From assembly GCA_019352035.1 (NCBI GenBank), contig JABBNZ010000003.1, positions 24,063 to 88,062 of the forward strand: a stretch of 64,000 nucleotides of DNA, written 5' to 3'. The position numbers and the translations under genes were made by a program. Positions 6,274 to 52,728 of the stretch are shown here, piece by piece. Source of the stretch: Pseudomonadota bacterium (lineage in GTDB: Bacteria; Pseudomonadota; Gammaproteobacteria; Steroidobacterales; Steroidobacteraceae). Position 1 is the stretch's first letter. Each line of letters starts with the position of its first letter. The notes below the pieces were generated by a model that saw only the letters and a list, made by a program, of their open reading frames with translations, did not search any database and was not told the DNA's origin.

Positions 6274-8631
6274 TCAGCTGGACTCGACACTCTCCTCGGT
6301 GATGAAGCCGGCCGGCAGAATCAAGGTCGGCGAATCGTCTTCTTCGGAGTCGAGCTCCTGCGGCGGCAGCACGCCCGCACCGCCGGCGCCGAGACACCGC
6401 AGAGCTTCCTCGGCCTCGACCGGGCCGCAGTAGAAGTTTCCCTGGCCGAAGTGGCAGCCCATCGCCTCCAGCGCATCGGCGGTGGCCTGCGACTCGACCA
6501 CCTCGGCGATGGGCGTGAGCCCGAGGCTCGAGGCGAGCTGGACCATAGCCGATGCGAGGCTCGCGCCGCCGTGCTGCGAGGGGCTGGCGCCCACCCACGG
6601 CCGGTCGATCTTGACGTAATCGAACGGGAAGAGCTGCAGGTGGTTGAGCGAGGAGTAGCCGGTGCCGAAGTCATCGAGCATCAGCTCCACCCCGGTCTGG
6701 CGCAGTCGCTCGAGCGTCTCGCGGGCGGCCACCACGTTGCTGATGAGTCCGCCCTCGGTGAGCTCGAATTTGAGCGCCTGCGGCGGTATGGCGCTCTCGG
6801 CCAGCTGGCCCGAGACGTAGTCGCTGAGCTGCGGGTCGCGCAGCACCGCCGCCGACAGGTTGACGCTCAAATAGAAGTCGGTGCCGGCAGGCAGGCGCCG
6901 CCGCCATTCTCTGGCGAGCATGCAGACGGTGCGGATCGTCCAGCGGGTGATCGGCACGATGATTCCGGTCTCCTCGGCGATCGACAGGAATCGCTCCGGG
7001 CCGAGCATGCCCTCGATGGGATGCCGCCAGCGCAGCAGCGCTTCCGCGCCCACCGCCTTGCGGCCGCGCAGATCGACGATCGGCTGGAAGAGGAGCTTCA
7101 GCTCGCGGCGCTCCAGGGCAACAAACAGGTCGGCTTCCAGGCTGACGAGAGTCGCCGCGTCACCCGCCATGGCGGGTGAGTAGGCGATGCTCGCGATCTG
7201 TTCCTGACGCTGGGCCACGGACAGGGCGACCTGCGCTTCCTGCATGAGCTGCTCCGCGCGCTGCGGCCAGCTCTCGAGGCAGCTCATCCCGATGCGGGCG
7301 GTGATCGCGAGGCGGTGGCGCCTGAGCTCGAACGGCTCCTGCAGCAGCGCCTGCAGCTCGCTCGCGAGCCGCGGGGCCGCATCGCCCGAGCCGAGATCCG
7401 GCACCAGCAGGGCGAACTGATCGCCGCCCCAGCGGGCCAGCACGGAGGAGGGGGGCGCCGCGCGTTGGAAACGGCGGCCGGCCTGCACCATCAGCTCATC
7501 CCCGGCCGTATGGCCGAGCGTCTCGTTGATCAGCGGGAAGCGCTCGATGCCGATCAGGAAGACGCCGATGCGGCGGCCGCGGCGGGTGCGCAGCCCGCGC
7601 AGCGTGCGATCGAGCTGTTCCATGAAGTAGTAGCGGTTCGGCAGCCCGGTGAAGGCATCATGGAAGCGCGCGCGATCGACGCTCTGCTGCAGGTTCTCGC
7701 GCTGCTCGATCTCGTGCGCGAGACGCTGGTTGGCCGCATGCAGCTGCCTGCGCGCCGAGGAGAGCGAGGCGCGCAGGCGCAGTGTCCGATGCGTCAGGTC
7801 GTGGGCGGTGAACGTCAGCAGCCAGGCGATCACGGCGAGAAGGCCGATGTCGGTGGCGAGCGTGCGCGTCGGATACCAGCCTCCATGAGGGCGTATCTCC
7901 AAAGCCAGCGCGCCAGGTGAGGCGAATGGGAAGCCCGGCGGCGCGTGAATCACGCCGACGGCCGGGTCGCTCAACGGCGTGATTCGCGATGCGGCGAACG
8001 TCCTGGCATATCCCCCCGCGGGATCCCGCTGCACGAGCGCGAAATCGCTGCCGGCGCCCACCGCGCGCGTGAGCTGCGCGCGGGCCAACAGGCGATCGAG
8101 GTTTGCATAGGCGACCGCCCATCCCCCGTGCGGCGCCGCGCCGCGCGTGGCCTGACGGGTGAGCGGCGCGCGCGCCGCGATCAGCCACTCGCTGCCCTCG
8201 CGAACCGGTCCCAGCAAAGCCGCCGAGGGCGCGCCGCGCGCGGCGGCCTGCCACTCACGCATGATCGCCTTGGCGACCTCGGCGTTGGAGCGGCCGTAGG
8301 CGAGGATGCCGCCGCCGTTCGCCGCCTCGAACACTCTGAAACCGGACTTGGCCGGTCCGTTCGAGGTGCCCTGGGTGGCAGGGGGCGTGGCGCCCCGTGC
8401 AGCTTTCGCCGCGCGTGCGGCGAGCTCTTGGAGCTGCCGCTCCATGGCTCGGGCGCCGTGTGCGGCGGCGGCCTGAGCGGCATTGCGAGCCTGTTCCGCC
8501 CGCTGTTGCACGCTCAGGACGATGAGTCGGGATCCTGCGGCCACGACCGTCACGAGCACCAGGAGCGCCGGAAGCCAGGTCGAGCGACGCCTGAGAAACT
8601 GAGGGAGGTTGAGGCTCATGGGGCCGATCAT
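6274..8631 (-). CDS. Membrane GGDEF/EAL c-di-GMP enzyme, likely phosphodiesterase
   Basis: 785 residues: TM helix about 17-38, a 220-residue periplasmic sensor region of no recognised family, a second TM about 258-276, a short coiled coil, GGDEF domain about 305-470, EAL domain about 510-760. The GGDEF signature is GGDQF (402-406) and the preceding RxxD inhibition site is absent, so cyclase activity is doubtful. The EAL domain keeps EAL (530-532), SVNLS, FELTE, LDDFGTG, VKID, AEVVE and GQG, the full metal and catalytic set, so hydrolysis of c-di-GMP is likely. ATG 8631 overlaps the upstream stop as ATGA; the next in-frame ATG is 8619. Last gene of the three-gene operon, so the sensor and barrel upstream probably act on the same signal. 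Confidence 0.9.
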   Translation of the reverse strand: MIGPMSLNLPQFLRRRSTWLPALLVLVTVVAAGSRLIVLSVQQRAEQARNAAQAAAAHGARAMERQLQELAARAAKAARGATPPATQGTSNGPAKSGFRVFEAANGGGILAYGRSNAEVAKAIMREWQAAARGAPSAALLGPVREGSEWLIAARAPLTRQATRGAAPHGGWAVAYANLDRLLARAQLTRAVGAGSDFALVQRDPAGGYARTFAASRITPLSDPAVGVIHAPPGFPFASPGALALEIRPHGGWYPTRTLATDIGLLAVIAWLLTFTAHDLTHRTLRLRASLSSARRQLHAANQRLAHEIEQRENLQQSVDRARFHDAFTGLPNRYYFMEQLDRTLRGLRTRRGRRIGVFLIGIERFPLINETLGHTAGDELMVQAGRRFQRAAPPSSVLARWGGDQFALLVPDLGSGDAAPRLASELQALLQEPFELRRHRLAITARIGMSCLESWPQRAEQLMQEAQVALSVAQRQEQIASIAYSPAMAGDAATLVSLEADLFVALERRELKLLFQPIVDLRGRKAVGAEALLRWRHPIEGMLGPERFLSIAEETGIIVPITRWTIRTVCMLAREWRRRLPAGTDFYLSVNLSAAVLRDPQLSDYVSGQLAESAIPPQALKFELTEGGLISNVVAARETLERLRQTGVELMLDDFGTGYSSLNHLQLFPFDYVKIDRPWVGASPSQHGGASLASAMVQLASSLGLTPIAEVVESQATADALEAMGCHFGQGNFYCGPVEAEEALRCLGAGGAGVLPPQELDSEEDDSPTLILPAGFITEESVESS

Positions 8632-9461
8632 CCCGCGTGAAGCGTGCAGACGACGGTGAGCGTGATGCGCGTCTGACCGGCGACTTTCAGGTAATCCCCG
8701 AGGATCGACCAGTCCGTGCGGCCGAAGGATTTGGAGAGGCCGAGATATCCTTCGCGCAACTGCGGCGCCGGCCCCGTCAATCCGGTGTAGAGGTTGACGA
8801 CCGGAGGTGCCACATGGCCTGCCGCTCCCCCGAGCAGCCAATTCACCGCCCTGCCGTAGTGATTGATCTGCAGCGTCTCGATCTCGGTACCGAGGTTTCC
8901 GGTGACCGACCGCGAATACGAGACGGTCGTCTGCAGTTGCCGTGTCCAGAGCACACCCAGAGCCACCTTGGGCAGTGCGCCGTGCGACGTGTCGATATCG
9001 TACTGATGAGCCTGGAGCTGTACCGTGACCCGGCCGCCGAACGTGCCGGCCACCCCGGCGCCTTCCACCTGGTACTTGAAGTGGTGAGCACCCTGATACA
9101 AGTCGATGTCGCCGCTGCCCAGGTGGACCTCGCCGGAGAAGCTCCATTTCGCGGCCGCGTTGCCGGTGTTGACCGAGCCGGAAAGCGAGCCGAATGCCCA
9201 ATGCGCGTCCGCGAGCCGTTGGTATTCGCCTGCCACGCCCAGCACGCCGGAGTTGAAATCATGCAGCCAGGTGAGCGAGCCGCCGCCGCCGCCGTTCGCG
9301 CCGGTCAGCGTCGAGCCGTTGGCGCTGAAGATCAGGCTGTCGGTGGACGGGGCCGCCGGTGGCGGAGGAGGGACCGCGGGGGAAGCGGCCGCGGCGGCGG
9401 GTTGGGGCGAGAGGCAGGTCGCCGCGAGGACGAGCAGGGGCGAGTATCGCAAAGGTCTCAT
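8628..9461 (-). CDS. Predicted outer-membrane beta-barrel protein
   Basis: 277 residues with a signal peptide (MRPLRYSPLLVLAATCLSPQ, cleavage after PAAAAA) followed by a proline-rich spacer and then alternating hydrophobic strands separated by short polar turns, such as WAFGSLSGSVNTG, KWSFSGEVHLGSG and VTVQLQAHQYDID. This is the pattern of a 10-12 strand outer-membrane barrel. A terminal aromatic residue is missing (the end is CTLHAG). No family is recognised. Both ends overlap neighbours by ATGA, so it is translationally coupled between a PAS sensor and a GGDEF/EAL enzyme. A role as surface pore or signal input for c-di-GMP control is inference. Confidence 0.75.
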   Translation of the reverse strand: MRPLRYSPLLVLAATCLSPQPAAAAASPAVPPPPPAAPSTDSLIFSANGSTLTGANGGGGGSLTWLHDFNSGVLGVAGEYQRLADAHWAFGSLSGSVNTGNAAAKWSFSGEVHLGSGDIDLYQGAHHFKYQVEGAGVAGTFGGRVTVQLQAHQYDIDTSHGALPKVALGVLWTRQLQTTVSYSRSVTGNLGTEIETLQINHYGRAVNWLLGGAAGHVAPPVVNLYTGLTGPAPQLREGYLGLSKSFGRTDWSILGDYLKVAGQTRITLTVVCTLHAG

Positions 9462-10855
9462 CGTATCCTCGGCAGTGAGGCGCCCGGGAGGCGGGCGCCG
9501 AGGAGGGGTTCGTCCAGGCTCTCCGCCCGCGCGATCGGCAGGAAAGCGACCACACACAGCCGCTCCTGCTCGCCGGGGAGCGCTACGGCCGTGCTGGTCA
9601 CCTGGAAGATGCGCGGCACGATGCGCACGTGCATCTTGCGCCGGCCGGTCAGTCCGGGCTCCCACCAGCGCGGCGGGGCATCCGGCTGCGCGAGCAGCGT
9701 CGAGGCGTCAGCACCGACTCGAGCCGCGCTGAAGAGCGCGTGCGCCGGCCTGTTGAAAGCGAGCACCCGGTCCTGCGCGTCGACGAGGATCGCCTGCTCC
9801 GCCACGTCGAGCGCGGCCCGTGCGGCGAAGGCATCCGTCATCTCCTCGATGAGGATCAGCGCGAGACGCCGCCCCTTGTACGGGATGTGCTGCACCCGGA
9901 TCCGCGCGAGGCAGACCTCCCCGCCGCGGCGAAATACGACATGCTGTGCCTCGCCGCCCGTCCCGTTGACCAGCTCCTCGACGATCTCAGGATAGGAGAA
10001 CTCGACCGCCTCCGTGAGCTTGCGGCCGACCGCGGGCGCCCCGCCGGCGGTGAGACGCGCGAGCTCGGCGCTTTCCGATACGACATGATGGGTGCGCGCA
10101 TCGACCAGCATGGCCGGAAGCGGCAACTCCTCGATGAGGCTCGCCCACAGCTGCCGCCCGCGCTCGGCCTCCGCGCGTGCGGCGGTCAGGTCGGCGTGAA
10201 GGCGGTCGAAGACGGTGCCGAGGTATTCGGCGGCAAACGCGCATGCGATCATCAGCACGCCGAATCCCTCGAGCAGCACGAGGAAGTAGCCGGGAGGGGC
10301 ATAGAACCCTGGGAAAGGCCCGCTTGCCGCGGAAGGGCCGCCAAAGGGGCCGGTGAGCCAGGAGGCCCGCGGAGCGAGTCCGCTCGCATACCAGCGCAGC
10401 TCCGGCGACTCCATCAGCGCGACCGCCGACACCGCGAGTATGGCCAGAATGGCAACGGCATAGGGTTGCCAGCGGGAGAGGAAGATCGCGCCGATGACGG
10501 GCAGCACGAACACGAGCAGGAATGCCGGATTGTGAACCCCGCCCGCGTAATGCCAGATGAGGGCGACCACCACCACGCCCACCGCGTGCAGGATCGCCAG
10601 CGCGCGCTTGCGCCAGCGGTTGACCCCCGGGGCGGGCGCGGTGAGCATCGTGAATCCGACGTGAATCCCGGCGAGGGCGAGCAGCCCGAGCAGTGCCGCG
10701 CCGACCTTGATATCGAATGAGCCGAGGATCCAGGGAAGGCCCGCGGCGAAGAGCATCGAGAAGATCGCGAGCAGCCACAGGTCATCGAGCAGGTGCACGC
10801 GCGGATCGATCCACGTGGGCACGGGGAGGAGCTGGGTGCTGTCGGGAGACTTCAT
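9458..10855 (-). CDS. Membrane PAS sensor without output domain
   Basis: 465 residues. About six hydrophobic helices fill residues 25-215 (for instance LWLLAIFSMLFAAGLPWILG and NPAFLLVFVLPVIGAIFL). A short coiled coil (LHADLTAARAEAERGRQLW) leads to two PAS-like domains around 240-350 and 355-450. There is no histidine kinase, GGDEF, EAL or helix-turn-helix output, so it must pass its signal to a partner. First gene of the operon; ATG 10855 is preceded by AGGA, itself directly after a large hairpin. The overlap with the barrel gene is ATGA. The design resembles the sensory half of membrane histidine kinases or diguanylate cyclases. Confidence 0.8.
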   Translation of the reverse strand: MKSPDSTQLLPVPTWIDPRVHLLDDLWLLAIFSMLFAAGLPWILGSFDIKVGAALLGLLALAGIHVGFTMLTAPAPGVNRWRKRALAILHAVGVVVVALIWHYAGGVHNPAFLLVFVLPVIGAIFLSRWQPYAVAILAILAVSAVALMESPELRWYASGLAPRASWLTGPFGGPSAASGPFPGFYAPPGYFLVLLEGFGVLMIACAFAAEYLGTVFDRLHADLTAARAEAERGRQLWASLIEELPLPAMLVDARTHHVVSESAELARLTAGGAPAVGRKLTEAVEFSYPEIVEELVNGTGGEAQHVVFRRGGEVCLARIRVQHIPYKGRRLALILIEEMTDAFAARAALDVAEQAILVDAQDRVLAFNRPAHALFSAARVGADASTLLAQPDAPPRWWEPGLTGRRKMHVRIVPRIFQVTSTAVALPGEQERLCVVAFLPIARAESLDEPLLGARLPGASLPRIR

Positions 10856-10863
10856 CCGATCCT

Positions 10864-10905
10864 CGGCGCTTCCTCTCCAGCATTCATGCTGGAGAGGAAG
10901 CGCCG
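10864..10905 (-). promoter_or_regulatory. Perfect 19-bp hairpin before sensor operon
   Basis: Left arm 10864-10882 and right arm 10887-10905 are perfectly complementary, with loop TTCA. On the leftward transcript the hairpin ends directly before AGGATCGG and the ATG at 10855, so folding would stack against the ribosome binding site. No U-run follows, so it is not a classical terminator. It could be a translational control element or an operator; the sequence is seen, the role is inferred. Confidence 0.7.
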
Positions 10906-11107
10906 CCTCTCAATTGCAAGGTATCGCGGACCTGTGTTAATACACAGCCCGTCGGCATATCGGCCCTCAGGCCATCGGCAGGCGATCGATGATTTGTCGG
11001 GCGGCTCGTGGAAAGCGAGTGCAACGGCACGGTGGCTTCGGCTGCGAGTGTGCGTTGGGTAAGGGTACATGGTTGTTTCCGGGCTAGAACGTTAGCCTCC
11101 TGATTCT
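10906..11107. other. Intergenic stretch between two leftward operons
   Basis: About 200 bases without a credible gene. It contains TGTTAATACAC near 10936, the most AT-rich spot, and ATTTGTCGGGCGG near 10991. I see no clear -35/-10 pair for the leftward sensor operon. Confidence 0.4.
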
Positions 11108-11140
11108 GGAAATCCCCTCCTTTGAAGGAGGGGAAGACGT
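11108..11140. repeat. Dispersed hairpin element, copy 1
   Basis: GGAAAT, then an 8-bp stem (CCCCTCCT / AGGAGGGG, loop TTGA), then AAGACGT. Shares GGAAA, a GC stem of the same size and GGGGAAGACGT with the element at 42249-42280. It begins 10 bases past the stop of the beta-helix gene. It could act as a terminator stem, but repetition of the flanks points to a mobile palindrome, like the ends of IS200/IS605-type elements or REP sequences. Confidence 0.6.
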
Positions 11141-11150
11141 TAAGAGACTC

Positions 11151-12389
11151 TCATCGCCACCAGCTGCCGCCCTGTCGGGCGGCGACGGTCGCCGAGGACG
11201 GACCGAAGGAGTTGTGGTCGAGGAAGGGCGCGCTCGCCACTTTGCGCCCGTCGGGACCCTCGAAGTCTTCCACGCGAAGCGCAAAGGCATGCGGCTTGAG
11301 GACATGATTGCGCCGCAGGATCGGGGCATCTCCGATGACGTCGATGCCGTCATAGCGCGGCTCGATGATGATGTTGTCCACCACCGTGCTCGGGTCACGG
11401 GCATCGCCGAGCACGAACGCCATGCCGTAGGCACAGTCGTACAGCCGGTTGGCGCGCACGAGCGTATCGCTCGAGCCGCGCACCATGATGCCGTACGCGG
11501 TGAGCCCATTGATCTCGTTGTGCTCGATCAGCACGGCATGCGCGCCATCGGCGAGGATGCCCATCCCCGCGCCGCCGCTCACGCGGTTGCCGCGAACGAT
11601 GGCCCCGCCGCCCACCAGATCGACGGCCGCCGACTGCGAGCCGGCGATCTGGTTCCGCTCGATGAGGATGTTGATATTGCCGGTGACAATTCCGGTGTGA
11701 TCCTGATCGAACCGGTTGTCACGAACGCTGATCGCCCCTGCGCGCAGGTTGGTTGCGCCGCGCACGGCCCAGAGGCCGGCGTCGCGCTCGCCCGAGAACC
11801 GGTTGGCGGTGACGGTGGTGTCGGGGCTCGAGGCGGAGAAGCGGACCCCGATGCGATCATCCGTGAAGCGGTTGTGCTCGATGAGGAGGTCGTGCGCATT
11901 GCCGGCGACGTCCACTCCCACGTCGCACGATGTCAGCGTCGTGCTCTGGAGGCTCACGTGGACCGCCCGCACCAGTATGGCCGCGCCCCGGCAGTTGCGG
12001 ATGGCGAGGCCCTCGAGCGATACATTCGCCGCCGCGACGTCGAGCACCGGGCCGCCGCTCAAGCCGCGCGCATCGATCTCGCTGCCGGCCTGTCGCGCCA
12101 CGATGCGCACGCCGTGCGAGTTGACGATCGGCGGCAGCGCGCTCGAGAGCGTGATCCGCGGCACATCGAGGGAAATGCGCGCCGGTCCCGGCGCGGTGGC
12201 GACCACGAACAGCGCTTCGCGCAGCGTGCCCGGGCCGCGGTCGGCGCCGTTGGTGACGCTCAGCTCGATGCGGTTGGAAAGCCGCCGGCCGCCGGCGTGC
12301 CGTGACTCCAGCGACCAGCCGGCGAAGATGAGCGCCGCGACGCCGAGGAATACGGCAACCGAGAGCATGGAGCGGCGGCTCAGGCTCAC
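11151..12389 (-). CDS. Exported right-handed beta-helix protein
   Basis: 412 residues. An N-terminal hydrophobic helix (MLSVAVFLGVAALIFAGW) serves as signal or anchor; the rest is a parallel beta-helix with about ten rungs of the kind VRDNRFDQDHTGIVTGNINI and LIEHNEINGLTAYGIMVRG, typical of NosD/pectate-lyase-like carbohydrate proteins. Such proteins act on or bind polysaccharides outside the cytoplasm; no catalytic set is recognised. I chose GTG 12389 because GGGAG stands 7 bases upstream inside the preceding gene; ATG 12368 is the alternative. Last gene of the radical SAM operon, so its target is probably the glycan or lipid made by the upstream enzymes (inference). Confidence 0.8.
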   Translation of the reverse strand: MSLSRRSMLSVAVFLGVAALIFAGWSLESRHAGGRRLSNRIELSVTNGADRGPGTLREALFVVATAPGPARISLDVPRITLSSALPPIVNSHGVRIVARQAGSEIDARGLSGGPVLDVAAANVSLEGLAIRNCRGAAILVRAVHVSLQSTTLTSCDVGVDVAGNAHDLLIEHNRFTDDRIGVRFSASSPDTTVTANRFSGERDAGLWAVRGATNLRAGAISVRDNRFDQDHTGIVTGNINILIERNQIAGSQSAAVDLVGGGAIVRGNRVSGGAGMGILADGAHAVLIEHNEINGLTAYGIMVRGSSDTLVRANRLYDCAYGMAFVLGDARDPSTVVDNIIIEPRYDGIDVIGDAPILRRNHVLKPHAFALRVEDFEGPDGRKVASAPFLDHNSFGPSSATVAARQGGSWWR

Positions 12390-12391
12390 GG

Positions 12392-13204
12392 TCAGTCTCC
12401 CGAGCCATGGCGCAGGACGAACACGGCGTGCCAGGAGCGCTCGGTCAGGAGCCGCCCGCAGAGAGCATCGAGGGGCGCGGAGAGAGCGGTCGCGAGGGCG
12501 AGCGCGATGATCCGCAGCGGCCGCGGGAGGCGCGGCAGATGCGGCAGCAGCCACGCCTTGAACGGGGCGGGGTCTACTCCCGAGACCGCGTGGACCCGTA
12601 GGCCGCATTCGCGGAAGAGCCGCAGATAAACGGCTCGGTGGCGTGCCGTGAATACCGCAGTGTTGCAGCGACTCTCCGTGCGCGCGGGCGCCGCCTCCAG
12701 GATGACGAGGCGGCCCTGGGGCGCCAGATGCTGCGCCATGCGCCGCAGGGCGCAGCGCATCGCCCCGAGATCGAGCATGTGTTGAAGCATGGTGACGCAC
12801 AGGATCAGATCGAACGATCCGCCGATCTCGAGCGCCGCGCAGTCCTGCACGATGAAGCGGCACCGGCTCGTGAGCCCGGCGGCCGCCGCCCTTCGTCCGG
12901 CCTCGGCGATCATGGTGGGACTCAGATCGACTCCGGTGACGCGGGCGCCGCGCGATGCCAGCAATCGGCTCCAGCGGCCGATTCCGCATCCTACGTCGAG
13001 CACCTTCGCACCGGCCGCGGTTCTCAGCCACGGCTCGAGCGCGCGCCGCTGGGAGAGATGGATGAGCCTGTTGTAGAAGCCCGGCATTCCGTAACTGCAG
13101 ACGGCGGCGAGACCGTCCCCTTCCACGGCATATCGCCGGGCACGCGCTTCCCAGTACTCAGCGGGGCGGCAGCCCGTCAAGGAGGATGCTGCGCCAGCGG
13201 TCAT
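12392..13204 (-). CDS. Class I SAM-dependent methyltransferase
   Basis: 270 residues with a Rossmann methyltransferase fold: motif I VLDVGCGIGRWSRLLASRGA near residues 68-87, the acidic end of strand 2 GVDLS, and motif II/III LILCVTMLQHM and LVILEA. The N-terminal ARRYAVEGDG helix and the C-terminal hydrophobic HLPRLPRPLRIIALALATAL segment suggest a membrane-associated or lipid-linked substrate. The substrate is unknown. It starts one base after the glycosyltransferase stop (TGAGATG) and ends two bases before the beta-helix start, so it is part of the four-gene operon. Confidence 0.88.
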   Translation of the reverse strand: MTAGAASSLTGCRPAEYWEARARRYAVEGDGLAAVCSYGMPGFYNRLIHLSQRRALEPWLRTAAGAKVLDVGCGIGRWSRLLASRGARVTGVDLSPTMIAEAGRRAAAAGLTSRCRFIVQDCAALEIGGSFDLILCVTMLQHMLDLGAMRCALRRMAQHLAPQGRLVILEAAPARTESRCNTAVFTARHRAVYLRLFRECGLRVHAVSGVDPAPFKAWLLPHLPRLPRPLRIIALALATALSAPLDALCGRLLTERSWHAVFVLRHGSGD

Positions 13205-13205
13205 C

Positions 13206-14654
13206 TCATCGCCTCGTCGCGAGCATATGTACGCCATGCACGCCCTGGGGCTCGTGCGCATCGCCGGGCTCGGGCTCGTAGTGATCGCGATACAACCGTC
13301 GGCCGATGAGCTTGAGCGCGATCCAGTTCGCATATCCGACCGTCATGGGCGCGATGTGCACGAGCGCGTAGAAAAGATACAGCGGCACGATGGGCGCCGC
13401 GTACGCACGCTCGCTCTTGGGCACCACCGTGAACATCGCCACCGCCCCGAGGACCAGATAGCTGCCGATCGCAGCCATGAAATACGCCGGATTCGTCCAG
13501 GTATGGAGCTGCGGCTGCCCGTGCGCGAAGAATAGGCTCTCGATGCCGCTCAGGAAGCTCGCGAGCAGCAGCAGCGCACTGAAGGTCTTGAGCAGGTGCA
13601 GGCAGATCGTGAGCCCCCCCACATAGACGATGTAGTGGTACAAGGCGAAGGGCGTGCGTCTCGCGATGCGCCACACGGAGCCGAGGCGCTCGATGAAGAC
13701 CTTCAGCAGCCCGTGGTACCAGCCCACGCGCTGCGAGAACCATCGGGTGAAGGAGCCGGGCCCTTCGGTGCCGACGACGAGCCGGCCGTCGTAATAGATC
13801 CGCTCGCCCCGATCGAGCAGAATGACGGCGTTCTCGAAGTCTTCCGCGTACACCGACAGCGAGTGCTCCTTGAGCGCCTGGGCGAGTGCGTCGCGGCGAT
13901 AGACCGAGACGCCGGAGGTGATGCTGTAGTCCGCGAGGCTCTGCCGGCCGGCCCGAAACGCCAGCGCGTACTCGAACGACTGGAACCGCGCAAGAAAGCC
14001 GTCCGGCTCGATCATCACGCGCGGGCAGGCCGCCGCGGCTCCGGACTGCTGGAACTCGCCGATGAATTGCTCGAGGTCGATCTCGCTGCCGGCCCCCGGC
14101 TCGAGGATGCGGATGTCCGGATCGATGACCATCACGGTCTCGATGTAATCGGGCAGAGTCTCGAGCAGGCGGCGCACAGCGGCGGGCTTGCGCCGATTGA
14201 CCCCGTCATCGAAGCAGCGCCAGCCCGCCTGGCGCAATCGCAGCAGCGTGTGGTCGGTGGAGCCGTCGCTGATGAGCCACATGTGCTCCCGGTAGGGCGC
14301 ATAGTTGGCGGCGAACTCCTCGATCCGCTCCTCCAGATTGTGGACCGAGGCGATGATGGCGTAGGGCTCGATGGGCACGACCGCTTGCGCGCCCGCCGGC
14401 AGCGCGGTGGCGAGATCGATCGAGATCTCGCGCTCCCGCCCGGTGCCGCGCGCCGTCGCGGTGTGGCGCCGCCTCATGTAGAGCCGCAGCGCGAAATCGA
14501 GCGCGTCCGTGTAGACGATCAGATTCGCGAGCGCATACACCAGCATCGAGAAGCTCGCGGCCTCGGCATTCGCCGCGGAGAGGGCGATCCAGCCGCCGAG
14601 CAGCGCGCAGACCGCGAGCGGCGCGGCGAGGCTGACGAAGCGGCGGGTCGTCAT
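13206..14654 (-). CDS. Membrane glycosyltransferase family 2
   Basis: 482 residues. Two N-terminal helices (about 8-28 and 34-55) and about four C-terminal helices (from residue 330) frame a cytosolic GT-A domain. Visible GT2 features: nucleotide-binding ISDGSTDHT, the metal motif region VMVIDPDIRI, the acceptor-site acid in YAEDFE, and QRVGW in place of the QxxRW of processive synthases such as BcsA or NodC. It may be a synthase that extrudes a polysaccharide or transfers sugar to a lipid. It overlaps the radical SAM gene by ATGA and the methyltransferase follows at once, so all are likely translated together. Confidence 0.85.
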   Translation of the reverse strand: MTTRRFVSLAAPLAVCALLGGWIALSAANAEAASFSMLVYALANLIVYTDALDFALRLYMRRRHTATARGTGREREISIDLATALPAGAQAVVPIEPYAIIASVHNLEERIEEFAANYAPYREHMWLISDGSTDHTLLRLRQAGWRCFDDGVNRRKPAAVRRLLETLPDYIETVMVIDPDIRILEPGAGSEIDLEQFIGEFQQSGAAAACPRVMIEPDGFLARFQSFEYALAFRAGRQSLADYSITSGVSVYRRDALAQALKEHSLSVYAEDFENAVILLDRGERIYYDGRLVVGTEGPGSFTRWFSQRVGWYHGLLKVFIERLGSVWRIARRTPFALYHYIVYVGGLTICLHLLKTFSALLLLASFLSGIESLFFAHGQPQLHTWTNPAYFMAAIGSYLVLGAVAMFTVVPKSERAYAAPIVPLYLFYALVHIAPMTVGYANWIALKLIGRRLYRDHYEPEPGDAHEPQGVHGVHMLATRR

Positions 14655-16270
14655 GCGATCGCGACGGCCCGCAGGACCGTCGCTCCTGGGAGCCGCGGCA
14701 GGCGCGCATCGAGCTCCGCCTCCACCTCACGCGCATCCGCGATCGGCAGTCCGTGCGCGGCGAGCACGGAAAGCGAGCTCAGAATCCAGACGAGAGAGCG
14801 AACCCGGGAGGGCAGATGCGCCGCTCTCTCCTCGAGGGCGGCGATCCTGCGCTCGAAGTCGCTCTCGATCCGCAGCACCGCCTCGCGTACGGCCGGATCG
14901 ATCGGCAGGATCTTCGCCGGCTGCTCCCACTCCAGCTCGGTCCCGGCAACGCGCCTGCGGGCATAAATCGTGTGGGCGGCGAGGGAGCTGTCGCGGGCGA
15001 AGGCGGCGCCGGAGAAGGGGATGACATAGGGATACATCCCGATCTCGCAGCCGCGGCGCAGCCAGCGATAGCCCTCGCGCAGCGTCTCGGCGAGATCCTC
15101 CAGGCCCGCCCGGGGGGAGCTCAGGATGAGATCGAGGAAGGGGGTGATGCCGAGGCCGAGCGCGGCCTCGAGCATCGGCTCGATGTGGCGGTGGATCGCC
15201 GCCTTGTTGAATTCGGCGAGCACGCGCCGGGAAAAGCTTTCGATCCCGAACCCGAGCACGCGAAAGCCGGCGCTGCGCATGGCCGCGAGACGCTCCACCG
15301 ACATCGCGTCGATGCGGTTCGTGCTGATGAACTGCAGCTCCTGCGGCAGCGCGCCGCGGGCCTTGGCCGCCACGATGCCTTCGCAGAGCGGCAGGAGCCG
15401 CCGATCCTGGGTGAAGGTGAAGATGTCGTCCTGGAAGATGATGGTGCGCACCCCGGGATGGGCGGCGACGATGCGCTCGATCATCGTGAGGCACTCCTGC
15501 GCCTGCAGCCGCGCCACGGCGGCGACGCGGCCCTCGGCCTCGTGCAGGAAGTTCGTCGCGGAGCAGAAGCTGCAGCCCATCGGGCAGTAGTTGAGAGTGA
15601 TCAGCCGCACGGAGCGGATTTCCGCCAGACGGGCCTCGCGAGCCGCCTTGACCGGCAGCTGGCCGACGCGGTACGCCTGCTCCAGGCGGCTCCAGTATGC
15701 CGGGTAGGGCATTCTCGAGTAGGGCGTACTGAAGATGGCCGCGCGCAGCTCCTCCCGGTTCAGAGCGCGTTGCGTGCGCTTGACGATCGTGCCGTCCACC
15801 TTGACGGCGGTGCCGGGCAGAGCGCCGAGCGGCTCGCCGCCGCGCAGGCGTCGGACGATTTCGGTCAACGGCCGCTCGCCTTCTCCCAGCACCACCAGAT
15901 CGAACGGACCGAGCTCGAACATCAGTTCCGGCCGGAATGTCGCCTCCATGCCGCCGGCGACGATGAGCGCACCGGGCGCGAGGCGGCGCGCAACGTGAGC
16001 CAGCTCGAGGTCGAACCGCAGCGTCATGCCGGTCGTCGACACCCCGATGAGGTCCCAGTGCGACTGCAGGATCTCGCGCTCGAGCGCCCGCTGCGGCGCG
16101 ATCGCGCAACAGTTCGGATCGAACACCTTGACGTACGCGCCGCAGGACTCCAGCACGCCGGCGAGCCGCCACACACCGAGCGGAGGCGCGAGAAACGTGT
16201 ACTCGCCGCAATGCGGGTCGTAAGGCCCGATCAACAGTACTCTCGGCGGCCGCGTCCCCAAGTTGTTCAT
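14651..16270 (-). CDS. B12-binding domain radical SAM enzyme
   Basis: 539 residues. An N-terminal cobalamin-binding Rossmann domain (VLLIGPYDPHCGEY through GEGERPLTEIV, about 10-150) is followed by a radical SAM domain with the [4Fe-4S] motif C229-PMG-C233-SF-C236 and the strand FQDDIFTF. A C-terminal region from about 430 is family-specific. Such enzymes methylate unreactive carbons or rearrange rings; substrates include phosphonates, hopanoids, lipids and peptides. The exact DxHxxG cobalamin motif is not present (DPHCGE is close). First gene of the four-gene operon. Product unknown: co-translation with GT2, a methyltransferase and an exported beta-helix suggests a modified surface glycan or lipid. 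Confidence 0.88.
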   Translation of the reverse strand: MNNLGTRPPRVLLIGPYDPHCGEYTFLAPPLGVWRLAGVLESCGAYVKVFDPNCCAIAPQRALEREILQSHWDLIGVSTTGMTLRFDLELAHVARRLAPGALIVAGGMEATFRPELMFELGPFDLVVLGEGERPLTEIVRRLRGGEPLGALPGTAVKVDGTIVKRTQRALNREELRAAIFSTPYSRMPYPAYWSRLEQAYRVGQLPVKAAREARLAEIRSVRLITLNYCPMGCSFCSATNFLHEAEGRVAAVARLQAQECLTMIERIVAAHPGVRTIIFQDDIFTFTQDRRLLPLCEGIVAAKARGALPQELQFISTNRIDAMSVERLAAMRSAGFRVLGFGIESFSRRVLAEFNKAAIHRHIEPMLEAALGLGITPFLDLILSSPRAGLEDLAETLREGYRWLRRGCEIGMYPYVIPFSGAAFARDSSLAAHTIYARRRVAGTELEWEQPAKILPIDPAVREAVLRIESDFERRIAALEERAAHLPSRVRSLVWILSSLSVLAAHGLPIADAREVEAELDARLPRLPGATVLRAVAIA

Positions 16271-47988: not shown

Positions 47989-48450
47989 ATGGAGCTAGAC
48001 CGCTACGATCGTGTCATCCTGCGCCTGCTGCAGCAGGATGCGCGCATGACGAACGCCCGTCTTGCGACGGAGGTCAGCCTGTCGGAGTCCGCCTGCCTGC
48101 GACGGGTACGGGCGCTGGAGGAGTCGGGCCTCATCGAGGGCTATACCGCGCTCATCAACCAGCAGAAGGCGGGCTATCCCGTGAACGTGTTCGTGAGCAT
48201 CACGCTCGACCGGCAGAGCCAGTCGGGTCTGACGGCGTTCGAGACCGCGGTGCGCAGGATTCCGCAAGTGATGGAGTGCTACCTGATGACCGGCGAGCAC
48301 GATTACCTGCTGCGGATCGTGGTCGCCGATCTCGCGGATTTCGAGCGCATCCACAGCCAACATCTGACGCGCCTGCCGAGCGTCGTGAGCGTGCAATCCA
48401 GCTTCGCCATGCGCACCGTGACCCGCTCGGCCGAGCTGCCCTTGCGCTGA
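47989..48450 (+). CDS. Lrp/AsnC regulator, probable AldR
   Basis: 153 residues: winged-helix DNA-binding half (LDRYDRVILRLLQQDARMTN, SLSESACLRRVRALEESG) and the RAM ligand-binding half with YLMTGEHDYLLRIVV. ATG 47989 was chosen because the family begins there. Divergent from ald, with two palindromes in between, so it probably senses alanine and controls ald. Confidence 0.9.
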   Translation: MELDRYDRVILRLLQQDARMTNARLATEVSLSESACLRRVRALEESGLIEGYTALINQQKAGYPVNVFVSITLDRQSQSGLTAFETAVRRIPQVMECYLMTGEHDYLLRIVVADLADFERIHSQHLTRLPSVVSVQSSFAMRTVTRSAELPLR

Positions 48451-52249: not shown

Positions 52250-52728
52250 GCCTCCGCTGCCGCCGCCACCGGCAGCCGGGTCGTGAATTTCTTCGTGCGC
52301 AGCACGAAGCTGGTGTTGACGGAGCGCACGCCAGCCAGCTGCAGCAGGCGCGTGGAGAGAAACTGCTCATAGGCCTCCATGCTCGCGGCGACGATGCGCA
52401 GCAGGTAATCGTTGGGGCCGCTCATGGAGTGGCACTCCAGCACCTCCGGCCGCTCCTGCACCAGCTGATCGAACTGATGCACCGTCTGCGGATGATGGTT
52501 CTCGAGCGACACCAGCGCGTAGGCCTGGATGGGCAGGCCGATGGCGAGCGCGGACAGGAGCGTCGCATAGCCCGCGATGAAGCCTTCCTCCTCCAGACGG
52601 CGCAATCGCCTCCAGCAAGGCGCGGGTGACAGACCGATGCGTTGCGCCAGCTCCTGGTTGGATATGCGCGCATCGGACTGCAGCTCATCGAGGATGCGGC
52701 AGTCGAGGCGGTCGAGGGGCCTTGGCAT
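52246..52728 (-). CDS. Lrp/AsnC regulator, probable BkdR-like
   Basis: 160 residues: winged helix (LDCRILDELQSDARISNQEL, LSPAPCWRRLRRLEEEGFI) and RAM half with SMSGPNDYLLRIVA. It is divergent from the fused E1 gene, the arrangement of BkdR and the bkd operon in Pseudomonas, so it probably activates branched-chain 2-oxoacid dehydrogenase genes in response to amino acids. Convergent with the aldo/keto reductase. Confidence 0.88.
   Translation of the reverse strand: MPRPLDRLDCRILDELQSDARISNQELAQRIGLSPAPCWRRLRRLEEEGFIAGYATLLSALAIGLPIQAYALVSLENHHPQTVHQFDQLVQERPEVLECHSMSGPNDYLLRIVAASMEAYEQFLSTRLLQLAGVRSVNTSFVLRTKKFTTRLPVAAAAEA

Follow-up and report, generated by a model that had tools for sequence, protein, structure and literature searches.

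A seven-gene operon of Steroidobacteraceae that combines a cobalamin-type radical SAM enzyme with c-di-GMP genes and may serve a cell-surface glycan

The DNA analysed here, a stretch of 64,000 nucleotides from a bacterium of the Steroidobacteraceae (assembly GCA_019352035.1, contig JABBNZ010000003.1, positions 24,063 to 88,062; referred to below as the window), carries an operon of seven genes on the minus strand. Four of them, running from 16270 to 11151, had been recognised in an earlier inspection of the sequence (the original prediction) as a tightly packed four-gene operon. The coordinates of the open reading frames (ORFs) bear out the packing, with junctions of -4, +1 and +2 bases, and the quartet stands; the operon runs on past 11151. 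It includes three further genes on the same strand (6274-10855), and the cyclic diguanylate (c-di-GMP) genes that had been taken for a separate neighbouring operon are its second half in 25 of 43 orthologous loci, 14 others ending too early to show it. We propose, with a probability of about 60%, that the seven genes make, modify and export a cell-surface or extracellular glycan under built-in c-di-GMP control. In order of transcription, the features are as follows (SAM, S-adenosylmethionine; GT2, glycosyltransferase family 2):

14651..16270, minus strand: RS, radical SAM enzyme with B12-binding domain, gene 1; ATG start, 539 aa
13206..14654, minus strand: GT, membrane GT2 glycosyltransferase; 482 aa, ATGA overlap with RS
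12392..13204, minus strand: MT, class I SAM methyltransferase; ATG start, 270 aa, 1-base gap after GT
11151..12389, minus strand: BH, right-handed parallel beta-helix protein; GTG start, 412 aa, 2-base gap after MT
10856..11150, minus strand: repeat element of 295 bp between the BH and PAS genes
9458..10855, minus strand: PAS membrane protein; 465 aa
8628..9461, minus strand: OMP, predicted outer-membrane beta-barrel; 277 aa, ATGA overlap with the PAS gene
6274..8619, minus strand: GGDEF-EAL membrane protein; 781 aa, 8 bases after OMP

Operon structure and conservation

The border was probably placed after BH because 295 bases separate this gene from the PAS gene. These bases are a repeat. It has 18 matches in the genome, six of them near-full copies (that of the window included, 85-100% identity); some of the 18 are a palindrome aligning to itself on the opposite strand. 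The repeat ends in this near-perfect palindrome of 42 nt, which leaves 8 bases to the start codon of the PAS gene. It is absent at this position in four close relatives (L056, L058, L059 and L093), where the BH-PAS junction measures 7 bases. The repeat may separate the transcription of the two halves; a scan for promoters and terminators gave no signal above shuffled sequence.

A scan of named genomes gave 50 loci, of which 43 (L056-L098, 35-88% identity in RS) were taken as orthologous and seven (L099-L105, 23-26% identity) were left aside as paralogues. All seven genes lie on one strand in 25 of the 43, another 14 stop at a contig edge before the end of the operon, and four are variants. Within the 25, the sequence breaks off inside the last gene in L058, L069, L074, L076 and L087, a 2-kb interruption separates MT and GT in L087, and the PAS gene of L067 is split (6917-8198), which may reflect an assembly error. 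Comparison of the gene neighbourhoods at the 43 loci bears out the expectation that the quartet is conserved as a system in distant genomes.

The junctions are conserved as well. Where the 3' end of RS lies within the sequence (40 loci, start sites called automatically), it overlaps the next operon gene by 4 bases in 31 cases. This next gene, at most 160 bases away, is GT in 32 loci and MT in seven, and in the fortieth, L098, a gene for a YaiO barrel stands between RS and GT. The junction between BH and PAS, where the two halves meet, measures -8 to +14 bases in all 32 loci in which both genes were called, Acidobacteriota included. In L071, L077 and L080 GT sits behind the GGDEF-EAL gene yet remains in the gene run. 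The OMP profile matched 28 of the 43 loci; 13 of the other 15 end before the OMP position, and L094 and L098 differ there. Because the gene profiles were built from most of the same loci, such matches confirm rather than discover; the building set contained no OMP gene from L087 or L090.

Four loci depart from the common arrangement. In L088 a CHASE hybrid kinase occupies the GGDEF-EAL position, and in L090 (14053-18779) a PAS-GGDEF fusion is followed by OMP, with an HD-domain gene 1.5 kb further on; the signalling genes are thus replaced or fused in these two. L094 has an ORF of 271 aa, unmatched by the OMP profile, in the OMP position. In L098 (8992-13411), an unclassified metagenome-assembled genome (MAG), RS, YaiO barrel, GT and MT follow each other in one run, the barrel matching PF19413 with 42.7 bits (cut-off 23.9). 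The signalling genes were not seen there, and neither a beta-helix nor a GGDEF-EAL match was found within the 14.6 kb of locus sequence; perhaps L098 represents a minimal form of the system. As side observations, the ORFs after OMP in L090 resemble, by eye, a histidine kinase and a regulator, a gene family for a GNAT-type acetyltransferase (named by Pfam on the L087 copy) occurs in four of the 43 loci (L077, L080, L087 and L096), and a stop interrupts the beta-helix gene on contig 412 of genome G036, possibly through an assembly error.

One clue to function did not survive this comparison. The motAB genes beside the operon had been taken to hint at attachment or motility; tblastn queries with MotA and MotB gave no match in the 43 loci, several of which have little upstream sequence. 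The link is not conserved, and the neighbour in the window is incidental.

The hosts are Steroidobacteraceae, among them the cultured Steroidobacter gossypii S1-65, S. agaridevorans SA29-B, Peristeroidobacter soli JW-3 and P. agariperforans KA5-B, together with MAGs that bear the labels Acidobacteriota, Gemmatimonadota and others; the MAG labels outside Steroidobacteraceae may include binning errors. P. soli belongs to the family of the window genome. Within the order, 24 of 396 genomes matched RS at E <= 1e-12: the genome itself, 22 more of the family and, with one weak match (26% identity), a genome of another family. At E <= 1e-30 it was found in four of 398 genomes of the phylum, namely its own and three with 30-32% identity, and at E <= 1e-40 in four of 297 genomes from the phylum of an Acidobacteriota host, three of them already in the named-genome scan. 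In a tree of RS proteins the MAGs labelled as other phyla did not form one group (3 changes), and the labels Actinobacteria (L088) and Rhodothermaceae (L089) may be wrong.

Four of the genes (RS, GT, BH and PAS) were profiled across 60 genomes, that of the window included, with RS orthologues called at >= 65% identity. RS was present in 10 genomes, GT in 11, BH in 12 and PAS in 10, and 48 genomes had none of the four. They co-occur save in incomplete genomes or at contig ends: G005 lacks RS, and its GT lies at base 41 of a contig; G009 (63% complete) has BH and PAS alone; and in G017 and G031, where PAS was not found, the contig ends near BH. The pairwise divergence of the other six proteins tracks that of RS, with r from 0.84 (GT) to 0.96 (PAS) and none of 1000 permutations as high. 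Mean identity between the window and loci labelled as other phyla was 0.62 for RS (9 loci), 0.54 for MT (8), 0.41 for GT (9), 0.32 for BH (7), 0.29 for GGDEF-EAL (3), 0.25 for PAS (6) and 0.24 for OMP (2). That RS and MT are the best conserved would suggest a constant substrate for both.

Predicted properties of the seven proteins

RS combines an N-terminal B12-binding domain (Pfam, 57.7 bits) with a Radical_SAM core (41.6 bits) carrying the CxxxCxxC motif, the combination that defines its class; both scores are above cut-off. Cys229, Cys233 and Cys236 of the motif are unchanged in all 38 aligned rows. An AlphaFold model built from this alignment (predicted local distance difference test, pLDDT, 90.8) has TsrM, OxsB, TokK, MgmA, CysS and AprD4 as its nearest solved folds (Foldseek E ~1e-19 to 1e-14). 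According to the model RS shares domain order and fold with these enzymes; it differs from them in sequence (12-18% identity) and forms a subfamily of its own. The fold is compatible with the cobalamin methylases TsrM, TokK and CysS and equally with the diol dehydratase AprD4; RS is a putative cobalamin methylase. The genome has a cobalamin riboswitch and therefore handles B12.

None of the 23 NCBIfam matches of RS reached its cut-off, and assignment to another named radical SAM pathway was rejected. Hopanoid methylation, singled out beforehand as the case that would separate RS from the other genes, was rejected too: against the equivalog models RS scored 39.5 bits for HpnR (cut-off 650) and 37.7 for HpnJ (577.6). 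The next relatives of RS, the three with 30-32% identity in the sample of 398 genomes, each have sugar or flagellin genes at a distance of no more than 8 kb. These are flagellins and a TPR-glycosyltransferase at L109; a TPR-glycosyltransferase, a hexapeptide transferase and DegT aminotransferases at L110; and a PfkB/cytidylyltransferase protein and a UDP-sugar dehydrogenase at L111. Because these relatives lie near genes for flagellin, sugar aminotransferases or UDP-sugar dehydrogenase, a sugar is the likely substrate of RS. The three relatives may themselves modify flagellin or surface sugars by radical chemistry.

GT has hydrophobic segments at residues 7-25, 350-368, 393-411 and 422-440. 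Its GT2 identity holds at the level of the family: the window member alone stays below the Pfam GT2 cut-off (23.8 versus 27), and all 38 family members match Glyco_trans_2_3 at E <= 0.01. The identities originally given to the radical SAM enzyme, the methyltransferase and the beta-helix protein were upheld by Pfam outright. Residues D130, D134, D178xD180, E271-D272 and QRxGW occur in every covering row of the GT alignment (39-40 of 40). Of the signature of processive GT2 enzymes (D, DxD, ED, QxxRW), the last element is thus altered. The only match of the GT profile in the PDB was hyaluronan synthase 1 (E 2.5e-4).

MT matched Methyltransf_25 (Pfam, 84.8 bits); of its 65 NCBIfam families, the 25 best all stayed below their cut-offs. 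BH matched Beta_helix (95.1 bits) and has a conserved Asn ladder; with its hydrophobic N-terminus (residues 3-21) it is probably exported and N-terminally anchored. It also scored 71.9 against the broad Pfam NosD domain (cut-off 23.6). Identity with the copper maturation protein NosD was rejected at 49.4 bits versus an NCBIfam cut-off of 300. Across RS, GT, MT (best 25 of 65 families) and BH no function-level NCBIfam cut-off was exceeded; the only model above its cut-off was a generic one for parallel beta-helix repeats. The NCBIfam comparison covered these four proteins and OMP.

The PAS protein has six hydrophobic transmembrane segments, as predicted from hydropathy, and a PAS domain; no output domain was found. 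At E <= 0.1, 25 of the 30 proteins in this family matched PAS_8 (Pfam); the one in the window (0.014) falls below the cut-off. Because the PAS protein of L090 is fused to a GGDEF domain, we tie this family to the c-di-GMP signal.

OMP begins with a stretch resembling a signal peptide and was modelled by AlphaFold with 14 strands (pLDDT 84.9). OmpG was the best Foldseek match, ahead of FadL-type channels, CymA and AlgE. No Pfam or NCBIfam family was found for the window member. A suspected relation to the YaiO barrels was rejected: none of 25 OMP members matched PF19413 at E <= 0.5, and a profile comparison with the YaiO protein of the distant L098 cluster gave a probability of 0.24%, leaving kinship unsupported. 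The OMP family shows no sequence relation to the barrel between RS and GT in L098. In L077 (14116-17316) the barrel and GGDEF-EAL share one reading frame, which may be an assembly error.

The GGDEF-EAL protein has two hydrophobic segments and matches both domains in Pfam. Its GGDEF motif is degenerate (GGDQF), the Glu being lost in 23 of 24 rows. In the EAL domain E526, N587, E619, E622, D649, D650, K670 and Q726 are identical in all covering rows (22 or 23 of 25) and E709 is kept in 21 of 22. Judged by the motifs of active EAL domains, the catalytic residues of an EAL phosphodiesterase are intact, and the simplest reading makes the protein a candidate c-di-GMP phosphodiesterase or sensor.

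Proposed function and competing explanations

What the sequences show are the genes and their domains, their order, co-occurrence and co-divergence in distant genomes, a barrel by prediction, and a GGDEF-EAL protein with degenerate GGDEF and intact EAL; the glycan product, the two modification reactions, the direction of transport and the mode of regulation are inferred. GT would build a sugar chain from nucleotide sugar at the cytoplasmic face of the membrane. On the sugar precursor or the growing glycan RS would make a radical change, most likely a C-methylation, and MT would add an O- or N-methyl group. BH, anchored in the inner membrane, would bind, epimerise or cut the glycan in the periplasm, and the 14-strand barrel would let it out. 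The GGDEF-EAL protein and the PAS membrane sensor would set or sense local c-di-GMP, so that glycan synthesis might follow the switch between attached and motile life. The original prediction was that these genes could build and trim a methylated surface glycan or lipid; a modified surface glycan remains the best reading, and methylation by RS keeps the standing of a proposal.

A more specific form of this reading is tentative: the operon could be an exopolysaccharide system of a new class, in which a cobalamin radical SAM enzyme gives a C-methylated or otherwise radical-modified secreted polymer and matrix chemistry depends on B12. Most of what is known of cobalamin-type radical SAM enzymes concerns antibiotics, peptides, cofactors and lipids. 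Were the reading true, radical chemistry would become part of the bacterial surface through an operon of radical SAM enzyme, GT2, barrel and c-di-GMP enzyme, and B12 supply would be linked to attachment in soil bacteria. The cultured Steroidobacter and Peristeroidobacter hosts make the function directly testable.

Several observations weigh against the proposed function. QxxRW has Gly in place of its Arg in all 39 covering rows, and for this reason GT may attach single sugars rather than polymerise. In BH we recognised none of the catalytic residues of known lyases or epimerases; OMP is closer to the porin OmpG than to the exporter AlgE; and domain searches of the seven proteins gave no TPR, PilZ or MshEN match. 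No eighth gene family (ORFs of at least 90 aa, nucleotide-sugar genes included) occurs in more than five of the 43 loci. Co-divergence is also expected from plain shared descent. A relative of RS with 26% identity from the same order (L112, 9309-10895) lies amid ORFs resembling, by eye only, ketosynthase or fatty-acid-type genes, and the paralogues with 23-26% identity sit in varied settings; because of both, the wider RS family is not limited to sugars. By eye, the neighbours of L112 include ketosynthase, thioesterase and reductase-like ORFs.

Some of these points would suit a glycolipid better. In that case a membrane lipid would receive one or a few sugars from GT; RS and MT would methylate the lipid or its sugar, and the barrel and BH would move or handle the product at the outer membrane. 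The QRxGW motif, the FadL-type lipid channels among the fold matches of OMP, the setting of L112 and weak NCBIfam matches of RS to HpnR, HpnJ and a lipid-biosynthesis radical SAM family all agree with such a product. We nevertheless regard it as unlikely, since those matches are far below cut-off, the sole PDB match of the GT profile is a hyaluronan synthase and, with no extra gene in more than five of the 43 loci, there is no conserved lipid gene.

It is more doubtful still that the operon makes no new polymer and instead decorates existing lipopolysaccharide, capsule or a pilus or flagellin glycan, with its c-di-GMP half as a surface sensor in a motility switch. The six-segment PAS sensor and the GGDEF-EAL protein within the operon would fit that role, as would motAB beside the window copy and the flagellin-containing locus of the distant relative L109; the absence of motAB beside the operon at all 43 loci argues against it, and the operon's own barrel and beta-helix point to export of a product of its own. 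Very improbable, finally, is a chance or jointly transferred pairing of the biosynthetic quartet with an independent c-di-GMP trio, despite the 295 bp between them in the window, the greater variation of the trio compared with RS and MT and the presence in L098 of RS, GT and MT without c-di-GMP genes, since the window gap is a repeat element, the BH-PAS junction is tight in 32 of 32 loci, GT moves behind GGDEF-EAL without leaving the run, and the one-half-only cases among the 60 genomes are the incomplete G009 and three at contig ends (G005, G017 and G031).

Relation to known systems

On the proposed reading the operon would work much as two kinds of known system do: the synthase-dependent exopolysaccharide systems, of which it would be a compact counterpart, and NfrBA-YbcH. 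Systems of the alginate type share with it a GT2 synthase, a periplasmic right-handed beta-helix protein (AlgG in the alginate system), an outer-membrane porin, here a predicted beta-barrel, and control by c-di-GMP, here a proposed one. The operon is unlike them in that no periplasmic TPR scaffold (no TPR match in the seven proteins) or PilZ protein was found, the barrel is smaller, with 14 strands, and two extra SAM-dependent enzymes are present. Because QxxRW is altered and no TPR scaffold was found, we do not file the operon as a plain member of the synthase-dependent class.

NfrBA-YbcH of E. coli consists of a c-di-GMP-controlled GT2 and an outer-membrane barrel (PMC8669469). By the description in the available extract of that paper, the resemblance would comprise an inner-membrane GT2, an outer-membrane beta-barrel, a membrane-anchored periplasmic protein and a locally acting c-di-GMP enzyme (PMC8669469). 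The same extract gives NfrBA-YbcH features of its own (MshEN and QxxRW in NfrB, TPRs in NfrA, the local cyclase DgcJ), none of which was found in the window operon, and it names for NfrBA-YbcH no radical SAM enzyme, methyltransferase or beta-helix protein such as the window operon has; the likeness is one of description (PMC8669469). A search of the open-access literature (titles and starts of abstracts, among the matches listed) found no description of the seven-gene cluster.

A role in defence was rejected: PADLOC, run on the seven proteins, gave a single match, that of the methyltransferase domain to mad2. The window has no tRNA and no Rfam match at gathering score. Far from the operon it contains a pair of inverted repeats of 65 nt (48262-48326 and 52385-52449), 77% complementary and 4058 nt apart.

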